The translations under genes and the position numbers were made by a program. The notes beneath the pieces were generated by a model. That model saw nothing but the letters and a program-made list of their open reading frames with translations. It searched no databases and was not told the DNA's origin. 31,686 nucleotides of DNA from a virus. The stretch's first letter is position 1; each line of letters starts with the position of its first letter. This document shows positions 2,258 to 18,465 of this stretch, in pieces. The stretch spans positions 1 to 31,686 of the IMG/VR virus record IMGVR_UViG_3300020455_000061; one strand, written 5' to 3'.

Positions 2258-2851
2258 ATGAACTATACATTAGAAAATATTGTTAAGGCCATCAAAGATG
2301 GTGATAAGAATGAGATAAGTGAAGCCTCTTTGGGTAGAGTTTATCAACACATGACTAAACAAGGTAGTGAAAGTTTTGCTATTATAACAGCCTTTAGGGG
2401 TGGTTATAGTAACAAAGAAAACCTATCTAGGAATAAACAATTAGAGTCTAGTGTTCGTTCACTCGGGCTTGGCTTTTTCAAACAGAAGGGGTATTGGAAT
2501 GAATGTGAGGATCCAAACATTGAGTATAAAGATTGTCCTGCTGATAAGATTAAGCCAGTCATCGAGTTAAGTTTATTTATACCTAACATTAAGTTTAAAG
2601 ATGCGGTTAAACTTGGTAAGAAATTTGACCAAGATGCAATAGTGTTTCAAGGTCCAGATACGGATGATAAAGTAGAACTGATTAGTAAATCAGGAGGAAG
2701 TATCATGAAGTTGGGTAAGTTTGCACCAAATAAAGTATCACAGGCTTATAGTAAAGTTAAAGGTAGAAGTTATGTCTTTGAGGGATTTGAATATGTTCCT
2801 TCAGGACAGATGTCTAACTTGGTATTCAAGTCGTTATTGGAAAATGAGTGA
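2258..2851 (+). CDS. DUF3293-like protein
   Basis: A 197-residue soluble protein. The block FAIITAFRGGYSNKENLSRN, followed by a helix with paired arginines and then GYWNECED, resembles the DUF3293 pattern (ITA-x-NP then N-x-x-R-N, then a G-W/Y turn). LGKKFDQDAIVFQGP also matches the family's GRRFGQDAV-like ending. The function of that family is not established. The C-terminal third (KLGKFAPNKVSQAYSKVKGRSYVFEGF) is a conserved-looking tail. The gene abuts the preceding small ORF and overlaps the next by four bases, so it is probably cotranscribed. The assignment is by eye and moderate. Confidence 0.6.
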   Translation: MNYTLENIVKAIKDGDKNEISEASLGRVYQHMTKQGSESFAIITAFRGGYSNKENLSRNKQLESSVRSLGLGFFKQKGYWNECEDPNIEYKDCPADKIKPVIELSLFIPNIKFKDAVKLGKKFDQDAIVFQGPDTDDKVELISKSGGSIMKLGKFAPNKVSQAYSKVKGRSYVFEGFEYVPSGQMSNLVFKSLLENE

Positions 2852-4176: not shown

Positions 4177-4218
4177 AATAAATGCTATTTTTATTAAATA
4201 GGTTTATATTTATATATA

Positions 4219-4300
4219 CATCAAGGCTCAAATGAGGTTGATGTTTAATAACCGAATATCAAGGTTCAGTAGAAGTTGATATTCATGTTGACTAACCGTA
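4219..4300 (+). promoter_or_regulatory. Two tandem, covarying hairpins in the hsp20 leader
   Basis: Hairpin 1 (4219-4243): CATCAA, GG, CTC, AAAT, GAG, G, TTGATG. Hairpin 2 (4255-4283): AATATCAA, GG, TTC, AGTA, GAA, G, TTGATATT. Both have the same plan: outer stem ending TCAA/TTGA, an asymmetric GG/G internal loop, a 3-bp inner stem (CTC/GAG becomes TTC/GAA) and a 4-base loop. Each is followed by an ATGTT-spacer-TAACCG stretch (about 4241-4254 and 4285-4299). They end about 20 bases before the hsp20 Shine-Dalgarno AGGAG. Candidate RNA element or tandem protein operator. Confidence 0.6.
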
Positions 4301-4318
4301 ACACAATAGGAGACTATA

Positions 4319-4798
4319 ATGACTAAAGTTACTTTTCGCAAATTCCCTGTTCCAGCCGTACTGGATAGGGATTCTTTTTTAACACCATTTGATAGAATGT
4401 TTGATGATATTGTAGGAAAACAATTTCCTGAAATCAATCAACAAGTTGGAGTCAATCCATTTCAAGGAACAGCATACCCAAAAGTAAATGTATATGAATA
4501 CGATACTAAGATTGGTGTGATTGCTGAGATACCTGGTTTGGATAAGAAGGACTTAAATGTAGAAGTTGAGGATGGTGTATTAACTGTATCTGGTGAAAAA
4601 TCACATGGATTTGATGAGGGCGAGGCTAAGGTATTGCGTCGTGAACTCAAACACTCTTCCTTTAAGAGACAATTCACTTTAGGTGAAATGTTAGATGGGG
4701 ATAATATCTCTGCCAACTTTAAGGATGGTATTCTATCTATTGAGATTCCAAAGATAGAACCGACACTCCCTAAGAAAAACATTGTCAAGATTAAGTAA
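4319..4798 (+). CDS. hsp20: Small heat-shock protein (Hsp20, alpha-crystallin domain)
   Basis: A 159-residue ATP-independent holdase of the alpha-crystallin family. The domain spans about residues 50-147: PKVNVYEYD, then IPGLDKKDLNVEVEDGVLTVSGE (the family's consensus strand pair) and FKDGILSIEIPK. The C-terminal NIVKIK supplies the I-x-I/V motif that docks oligomers. Marine T4-like phages commonly carry one; it probably protects phage proteins during assembly or under stress. Strong AGGAG precedes the ATG by seven bases. The gene is preceded by an unusual leader with two tandem hairpins, which may control its expression. Confidence 0.92.
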   Translation: MTKVTFRKFPVPAVLDRDSFLTPFDRMFDDIVGKQFPEINQQVGVNPFQGTAYPKVNVYEYDTKIGVIAEIPGLDKKDLNVEVEDGVLTVSGEKSHGFDEGEAKVLRRELKHSSFKRQFTLGEMLDGDNISANFKDGILSIEIPKIEPTLPKKNIVKIK

Positions 4799-4988: not shown

Positions 4989-5528
4989 ATGGATGATACA
5001 TTACAAAAAATTCGTTACAAAAAAGTAAGACAAAAGTTACGCTACCTACAAACTGAATTAGAAGAAACTAAACTGATTTATCAAGTATGTTTGGATAAAT
5101 TTAATGAGGATTTTTCTAAATATATGAATGATGGAGATAGTCAAATAACAGCACCATCTGATAGTGAACAAGTAAAATACGATAAATTAGATACTGATGT
5201 TAGTGAGGATACTATCAAAGATGTTTATCGCAAAGTTGCTGCTAAAACCCATCCCGATAAAAAAGATGGTGATGAAGATGTATTTAAAAAATTAAATAAA
5301 GCAAACAAGAATAAAGATTTTGGTACTATATTAGAAATGGCTGATGAATATGATATACCAATAGAGTCATCAGAATTTATGATGTTGGAAATGGCCAAAC
5401 AAAATAAATCAATAGTAGGTGCTATTGAAAATATGAAACTTACTTGGGCATGGACTTATTCTCATTTAAGAGGTAATGATAAGAATGAATTTAAAAAGTA
5501 TGTTTTGCAACAACTAAATGTAAAATAG
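4989..5528 (+). CDS. J-domain (DnaJ-like) protein
   Basis: A 179-residue protein. Residues about 1-45 form a coiled coil. A J domain follows at about 68-120 with helix II DTIKDVYRKVAAKTHPDK: the HPD tripeptide that triggers Hsp70 ATP hydrolysis is at 88-90, then a helix III beginning FKKLNKANK. The C-terminal 60 residues are helical and unassigned. It lacks the Gly/Phe and zinc regions of full DnaJ, so it is a class III co-chaperone that could recruit host DnaK to phage substrates. The start has no good Shine-Dalgarno and directly follows a TATTTATAT block. It sits beside hsp20, suggesting a chaperone pair. Confidence 0.85.
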   Translation: MDDTLQKIRYKKVRQKLRYLQTELEETKLIYQVCLDKFNEDFSKYMNDGDSQITAPSDSEQVKYDKLDTDVSEDTIKDVYRKVAAKTHPDKKDGDEDVFKKLNKANKNKDFGTILEMADEYDIPIESSEFMMLEMAKQNKSIVGAIENMKLTWAWTYSHLRGNDKNEFKKYVLQQLNVK

Positions 5529-17090: not shown

Positions 17091-18038
17091 ATGGAATACT
17101 ATTTACCAAGAATTTTACAAGCTGGTATAGGTCCTAATCAACCACCACATACAAAAGATATAATTGTTAATGGAATACCATTATTTGATAATATACAAAT
17201 ACAGACAATTGAGTTTTGTAATTTAAAGTGTGATTTTTGTCCTAATCATTATTTGATTTGGGATAGGTTAGATGATAAAAGAAATGGAACACCATATAAA
17301 TTGATGTCCATTGAAAATTATACTAAGTTGATTAAGAACTTATCAGACTTAAACTACTCTGGTAGAATATCACCTTATCTAATGAATGAACCATTGATGG
17401 ATAAAGATAGAATGGTAGAAATAATTGGTATTGCTAAAGAGTATTTACCAAATAGCTATTTGACAATTAATACAAATGGTACTGGATTAACAGTAGATTT
17501 GATGCAAGGTATGATTGATGCTGGTATGGATAGGATACAGATTGATGATTATTTTGATGATAAGTATGCAACCAGAATGTTAAAGATTATGGAACACTTT
17601 CAGAAAGCGAATTGTAATATAATTTTATCATCTAATTATAATGTTAAACAGGCTAGGAATAGAGAGGATAAAAATAAATTACCACATTATGGTCCTTATA
17701 CTTATTGGAATAGAGGTGGTTTGGTAAATGTAAACCCAGACATACCTGTACCACAAAAGAATTGTAAATATCCTAATAAACATGCGTTTATTAAATGGGA
17801 TGGAAGTGCATTACTATGTTGTTGTGATTGGGAATATAAAGTAGTACATGGTAATGTTTTTGAAACAAGTATAGAAGAGGTTTGGACTAATGGTTCATAC
17901 CAACACTATAGAGATACCTTAGCAAAAGGTAGAAGAGATTTATTAAAAATGTGTCGGAAATGTAATATGGGCGGAGTTGAATCAGAGGATCAACGAATGG
18001 AAGAATTTCAACGACAAGAAAAATATGGGGCTGACTAG
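17091..18038 (+). CDS. Radical SAM protein with SPASM-like C-terminus
   Basis: A 315-residue radical SAM enzyme. CNLKCDFC (Cys43, 47, 50) binds the [4Fe-4S] cluster that cleaves SAM. The TIM-barrel region follows, with INTNGTGLTVDLMQGMIDAG typical of family strand 3. A SPASM-like segment has Cys225, CCC at 243-245 (in the pattern F-I-K-W-D-G-S-A-L-L-C-C-C-D-W), GNV and CRKC at 288-291, enough for at least one auxiliary cluster. Relatives modify peptides or small molecules; marine phage homologues have no proven substrate. No precursor-peptide gene is evident next door. The final four codons and stop lie inside the 5' end of the tmRNA gene (18027-18038). Confidence 0.9.
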   Translation: MEYYLPRILQAGIGPNQPPHTKDIIVNGIPLFDNIQIQTIEFCNLKCDFCPNHYLIWDRLDDKRNGTPYKLMSIENYTKLIKNLSDLNYSGRISPYLMNEPLMDKDRMVEIIGIAKEYLPNSYLTINTNGTGLTVDLMQGMIDAGMDRIQIDDYFDDKYATRMLKIMEHFQKANCNIILSSNYNVKQARNREDKNKLPHYGPYTYWNRGGLVNVNPDIPVPQKNCKYPNKHAFIKWDGSALLCCCDWEYKVVHGNVFETSIEEVWTNGSYQHYRDTLAKGRRDLLKMCRKCNMGGVESEDQRMEEFQRQEKYGAD

Positions 18039-18459
18039 GATTCGATTATTACAATCAATTTAAAAAGTGCAGCAGAGATTAGGTCAATATCTCGTGACAA
18101 AAGACCTACTACACTCAAATGGCGATAATTCGCTTGAAGGGTTGGACATTGATTGGCATTTGGCTGAGTATGATTACTCACCAGCACCGATCGGTGATTA
18201 CCAACCATCTTACGCATACGCTGCTTAAGGTCTTGGGTTGTCTAACACCCGAGCATAAAATAAGTTAGACAAACTCACTTTAGCTAGAGGGAAGTTAGTG
18301 ATTAAAGAAACTGCCAGTTGGCAACTCTGAACAAAGTTGTTAGTGGTTTTGCAGGTAAATTAATAGGCCTCCTATGATAAGATGTGAAAACCTGACTAAG
18401 CTGTGAATGACTTAGTAAAAGGGTGTAATAAGACGGCGGTTCGATTCCGCCCAGCTCCA
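18027..18459 (+). ncRNA. ssrA: tmRNA (one-piece, extended tag)
   Basis: Transfer-messenger RNA that rescues stalled ribosomes. The 5' end GGGGCTGACTAGGATTCGAT matches bacterial ssrA. GGGGCTG (18027-18033) pairs with CAGCTCC (18452-18458), with A18459 as discriminator. CCA is not encoded (CAA follows). The T-arm is perfect: GGCGG (18435-18439), TTCGATT loop, CCGCC (18447-18451). PK1: GAGAT (18075) with ATCTC (18089), loop TAGGTC (18080) with GACCTA (18103). PK2: CTTGGGT (18232) with ACCCGAG (18247), loop TGTCTAAC (18239) with GTTAGACA (18264). Further pseudoknots are likely at 18273-18355. CTGACTAAGC before the T-arm also matches ssrA. It is longer than the usual 350-400 nt because of its 35-codon tag region. 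No promoter is seen directly upstream, so RNase P may free it from the operon mRNA. Confidence 0.95.
18121..18228 (+). other. tmRNA tag reading frame, 35 codons plus TAA
   Basis: Resume codon assigned as GGC at 18121, 12 bases after the 3' strand of PK1 (E. coli spacing is about 11). The frame runs 35 codons to TAA at 18226-18228, starting GDNSLEG and ending GDYQPSYAYAA. The end keeps the Ala-Ala of ssrA degrons but has Tyr where ALAA has Leu. Inside the frame, TGAGTA-TGAT-TACTCA (18165-18180) and CACC-GATC-GGTG (18185-18196) form hairpins enclosed by GGTTGG (18140-18145) pairing with CCAACC (18201-18206). The resume codon is inferred by position. Confidence 0.75.
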
Positions 18460-18465
18460 CAAGAT

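Follow-up and report, generated by a model that had tools for sequence, protein, structure and literature searches.

Tandem bulged-G hairpins in a phage hsp20 leader: a probable relative of ROSE-type chaperone leaders without the Shine-Dalgarno trap

Background

Leaders of the ROSE type have been found upstream of small heat-shock genes, as in the Rfam family ROSE_3 (RF02523), E. coli ibpA and the short ROSE element of Pseudomonas, and combine one bulged-G hairpin with a hairpin that holds the Shine-Dalgarno (SD) sequence. In E. coli ibpA, as in ROSE_3, the bulged-G hairpin (hairpin I) lies upstream of the SD hairpin. ROSE-like leaders have been described as the commonest class of RNA thermometer, yet what their stable upstream hairpins do is reported to be incompletely understood (PMC3669281). 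The ROSE-G leaders, in which the bulged G stands opposite an unpaired G, include the SD and have been described before ABC transporter genes (PMC12857270). A structured chaperone-gene leader can also be a target of the chaperone itself, as E. coli IbpA binds its own 5' UTR and represses its own translation in a manner that seemingly needs RNA structure and for which Arg93 is essential and irreplaceable in RNA binding (PMC10474464). For the hsp20 genes of phages, we found no report of ROSE-type leaders in the open-licence part of PubMed Central.

Here we examine the hsp20 leader of a viral genome record (IMG/VR IMGVR_UViG_3300020455_000061), the whole of which, 31,686 bases, is referred to as the window. 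Its genes include those for baseplate proteins and PhoH, which suggests a T4-like phage with a contractile tail. The leader appears from its sequence to be a relative of the ROSE-type chaperone leaders from which the SD trap has gone.

Results

Architecture of the leader

The leader occupies the interval between a small open frame and hsp20, and contains three tandem hairpins (H1-H3) downstream of an AT-rich element and upstream of the hsp20 SD (Table 1). The AT-rich element occurs once in the window as against 2.4 copies expected by chance, and in many relatives a stretch like TATATTTAT precedes the hairpins. A J-domain gene follows shortly 3' of hsp20, which suggests a small chaperone cluster.

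Table 1. Features of the hsp20 leader and of selected genes in the window
Feature	Position	Strand	Description
S-adenosylmethionine lyase family gene	2258-2851		product matches PF23780, E=5e-9; possible counter-defence gene
Small open frame	ends 4176
AT-rich element	4206-4214	+	ATATTTATA; immediately 5' of H1; candidate promoter element
H1	4218-4244	+	ACATCAA[GG]CTC(AAAT)GAG[G]TTGATGT; from folding and covariance model
H2	4254-4284	+	GAATATCAA[GG]TTC(AGTA)GAA[G]TTGATATTC; from folding and covariance model
H3	4286-4303	+	TGTT[G]AC(TAACC)GTAACA; weak; 3' end 5 nt upstream of SD
SD	4309-4312	+	GGAG; not within H1, H2 or H3
hsp20	4319-4798	+	small heat-shock protein, alpha-crystallin family, 159 aa; Pfam PF00011, E=3e-20
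J-domain (DnaJ) gene	4989-5528
tmRNA gene	18027-18462		Rfam RF00023, 90 bits; missed by the tRNA/tmRNA finder

H1 and H2 fold as a first-pass annotation had described, with energies of -9.3 and -10.5 kcal/mol, and each does so better than its shuffles (z -3.3 and -3.5, about -3.4 overall); the compensatory difference between their inner stems, CTC/GAG to TTC/GAA, is likewise real. That annotation had also placed an ATGTT-N3-TAACCG tail after each hairpin. The letters are present, but they belong to the 3' arm of H1 and to H3 and do not form a distinct element, and TAACCG was rejected as a conserved tail since relatives do not conserve it. H3, a third and weaker hairpin with the same plan, was absent from its account, as were the free SD and the relation to ROSE, and it did not choose among mechanisms. 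A short reading frame within H3 (TTG ACT AAA TAG) was considered and set aside by inspection, as its start codon is not conserved and the pairing is.

The annotation had proposed a search of the rest of the genome; across the 31.7-kb record, H1 and H2 are the only two sites that match the core pattern exactly. A covariance model trained on 58 distinct hairpins from the window leader and related leaders ranked H1 and H2 as the two best sites in the window (30.3 and 20.5 bits, with the next site at 13.4), scores that serve as a uniqueness check only because the model includes both hairpins.

Conservation and covariation among relatives

Relatives in this family of mostly marine phages were drawn first from 80 viral loci whose Hsp20 is 64-88% identical to that of the window, and then from further loci. 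The resulting 65 distinct leaders share a common plan of an outer stem, one 5' bulged G, an inner stem of 2-4 bp and an A-rich loop of 3-5 nt. After removal of duplicates, at least one bulged-G hairpin lies upstream of the SD in 64 of the 65 and at least two in 55, although these are counts of distinct leaders and not of independent events; in an earlier and smaller set, at least two were present in 50 of 60 distinct leaders compared with 3 of 1,200 shuffled leaders. H3 is kept in 60 of 65 relatives (1.25% of shuffles), is separated from the SD by 1-9 nt in 60 of the 65, and includes an ACT/AGT class that covaries. The SD of this family stands 10-11 nt upstream of the ATG and never falls within a bulged-G hairpin.

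Covariation was assessed on hairpins chosen by their core alone (the G, three inner pairs and four loop bases), leaving the outer arms unconstrained. Across 67 distinct cores the outer arms pair in 84% of cells and all six outer pairs show changes on both sides, with G-U among some of the stem pairs. The covariation score of the outer stem is 0.916, compared with 0.226 +/- 0.025 for shuffles and a ceiling of 0.25 over all slides, and four outer Watson-Crick pairs accompany 48 of 67 cores in leaders but none of the 114 such cores found at other places in the loci. Because related sequences inflate covariation scores, the slid and elsewhere controls outweigh the shuffles. The suggestion of the first-pass annotation that this is a real RNA element, conserved in structure over sequence, is supported by this covariation (0.92 vs 0.23 shuffled), and the hairpins that it had reported before hsp20 recur in that position in related phages (64 of 65 leaders).

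A near-invariant bulged G

A grammar that demanded G would be circular for a claim about a bulged G, and the related leaders were therefore scanned with any base permitted on either side, or with no bulge. The scan returned 106 hairpins with a 5' bulge, of which 104 carry G and 2 carry A, together with 5 hairpins bulged on the 3' side and none without a bulge. Loops are A-rich, with AAAT occurring 32 times. The scan was not designed for the GG/G form of the window, a G-G mismatch beside a bulged G; among relatives, either this form or a plain G bulge can be present at one and the same site (L141 vs L144).

Specificity for chaperone genes

The window and all 65 distinct related leaders have a PF00011-type gene directly 3', and the leader accompanies hsp20 across 25 clusters of different upstream neighbours. 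When the covariance model was applied to 25 records of up to 131 kb, it detected hsp20 leaders only, bar one marginal match (G004) that lies within an open frame and was taken as chance; very divergent copies elsewhere are possible, since three records with divergent hairpin forms gave no match at that threshold. Since the motif is confined to hsp20 leaders across whole records, a general late-leader element was rejected. In two pattern scans of viral contigs, the outer arms were paired in 24 matches, comprising 18 before hsp20, one on a contig that ends inside hsp20 (L474), one before dnaK and four that lack the remainder of the leader.

In the dnaK case (L477:750-2692), a window-type leader precedes a phage dnaK (Hsp70) with a J-domain gene adjacent. 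By reading, the contig encodes proteins similar to, and ordered like, those of the window, namely the J-domain protein followed by homologues of the products from ~24.1-28.9 kb, so that this single case looks like the phage lineage of the window. A search for further phage dnaK copies returned this contig alone. In bacterial genomes, the hsp20 profile search found no relative, and none of the pattern matches listed had hsp20 downstream.

A second RNA element, the manA motif (RF01745), was observed no more than about 500 bases before hsp20 in two phages, below cut-off in a relative of the window family (L061:1490-1686, 34 bits) and strongly in P-SSM2 (L168:1-121, 95 bits).

Comparison with ROSE and other described leaders

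No known RNA family was detected at the window leader at either the gathering or a relaxed threshold, and at the relaxed threshold Rfam ROSE did not match the window leader or seven loci of the family. RF02523 in particular matched neither the window record nor the hsp20 leaders of 18 relatives, its one weak match (E 0.72) lying elsewhere in a relative.

The resemblance emerges from comparison with other phages, whose Hsp20s were gathered with three single-protein queries because a profile of other phage Hsp20s was too divergent (leaders L083, L084, L164-L174 and IMG/VR loci L177-L416). Cultured phages (Melnitz, HTVC008M, Mosig, S-SM2, P-SSM2 and others) usually have a single bulged-G hairpin and, downstream of it, an SD hairpin of the ROSE type; none of those tested reaches the Rfam ROSE cut-off, and ROSE_3 matches three of their leaders below it (best Melnitz-3, 34.1 bits). 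Close to the SD, 196 of 198 distinct other-phage leaders carry a U(U/C)GC motif, compared with 1 of the 65 window-family leaders, and by a mechanical test the SD falls inside a bulged-G hairpin in 166 of 198 compared with 0 of 65. For whole leaders at 20 C, median predicted SD accessibility is 0.43 in the window family and 0.20 in the ROSE-type leaders, with overlapping ranges.

The window family thus shares with ROSE_3 the same upstream hairpin I, with the G on the 5' arm, and with ROSE-type leaders generally the position before a small heat-shock gene. Some of its H2 copies come close to the ROSE signature U(U/C)GCU...AGGA, reading UCGCUC-N4-GAGGA, and in the window itself the GG/G loop present in both H1 and H2 resembles ROSE-G. 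It differs from ROSE in usually having two or three bulged-G hairpins, none of which sequesters the SD, and the free SD of the window also sets it apart from ROSE-G. From these alignments and folds we conclude that the bulged-G hairpin was probably kept and multiplied in the window family, and that the SD-trapping hairpin was probably lost.

Operators of the MS2/R17 type, hairpins with one 5'-side bulged purine near the ribosome-binding site, offer an analogy only. The window shares with them the 5' bulged purine, the short inner stem, the 4-nt loop and the proximity to the ribosome-binding site; the bulge base differs and tandem copies are a feature of the window. To our knowledge, an MS2-type coat protein is not expected in a tailed phage.

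The residue at the Arg93 position

The comparison with IbpA autorepression extends to a structured chaperone-gene leader, from which feedback is proposed, but not to the key residue. By alignment, 157 of 158 window-type proteins have Ser at the position of Arg93 in E. coli IbpA, with the remaining one not scored, as do 64 of 65 in the distinct-leader set (one unassigned). The other phages have Arg in 168 of 198, Lys in 9 and Asp in 1, with 20 unassigned; leader type and residue change together across one deep split and so count as one event. With Ser at this position, self-binding by the phage Hsp20 would need a re-made surface.

Discussion

The structure of this leader is conserved and covaries, its bulged G is near-invariant, it is placed upstream of an SD that it leaves free, and it is linked to chaperone genes. 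As the ribosome-binding site is no longer hidden, the leader should control the chaperone otherwise than by simple heat melting. We consider it a cis-acting RNA control element of the phage chaperone gene, most likely, although at somewhat short of an even chance, a translational operator bound by protein. Each bulged-G hairpin would be a protein recognition site, two or three in tandem would allow cooperative binding, and the bound protein would reach H3 close to the SD, block 30S loading and repress hsp20 until drawn away. Hsp20 was the sole candidate considered and, by comparison with E. coli IbpA, the best candidate for this protein may be the chaperone itself, in which case the leader would act as a feedback sensor of free chaperone and not of temperature. 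The dnaK copy counts both for this reading and against it, the latter in that a gene other than hsp20 can follow the leader.

A plausible but less probable reading is an RNA thermometer of new geometry, in which H3, folded beside the SD in the cold, would impede the 30S subunit until warming melted it and turned hsp20 on, with H1 and H2 only aiding folding. The bulged G is needed for the heat response of ROSE-like and ROSE-G thermometers (PMC11342760, PMC12857270); H3 is marginally stable through its bulged G and A-U stem, is kept near the SD, and in relatives has stems whose predicted folded fraction falls from about 80-90% at 5-25 C to about 40-70% at 45 C. This predicted change is gradual, however, the SD stands outside every bulged-G hairpin, and the near-invariant G of H1 and H2 is left unexplained. 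These two hairpins are predicted to remain folded up to 45 C, so their bulged G would not serve melting, which favours recognition. An operator accounts for both a near-invariant bulge in stable hairpins and their repetition, and is the reading that we tentatively prefer.

Stable hairpins near the transcript start could instead shield the chaperone mRNA from 5'-dependent decay, a role that we regard as rather improbable. In many relatives H1 lies directly 3' of the AT-rich element, and hairpin I of Pseudomonas ibpA has been suggested as an mRNA stabiliser (PMC3669281), but any stable hairpin would suffice for this purpose, without a near-invariant bulged G or a 3-bp inner stem, and the model detected no hairpin of this kind at any other gene in these records. 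Operator, thermometer (through H3) and stabilisation (through the 5' position) can be combined. The alternative raised by the first-pass annotation, DNA operators for a dimeric repressor, draws on inverted repeats that adjoin the presumed promoter and now seems very improbable, being weakened by a one-sided G bulge in the sense-strand 5' arm, which breaks dyad symmetry, by the rarity of the bulged-G plan on the antisense strand, and by stem pairs that are in some cases G-U.

A broader and more speculative proposal, which we hold as possible but doubtful, is that the small heat-shock protein docks on ROSE hairpin I itself. The window family would then carry a multiplied docking array without the thermosensor, a temperature-independent feedback operator that has also moved onto dnaK.

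The comparison shows that a ROSE-type leader is usual in other phage hsp20 genes. In the window family, evolution appears to have split the parts of ROSE: the hairpins are retained and repeated, the SD trap is missing, and the chaperone has in parallel a different residue in place of its RNA-binding Arg. With these parts separated by evolution, the family provides a natural test of ROSE hairpins as protein operators.
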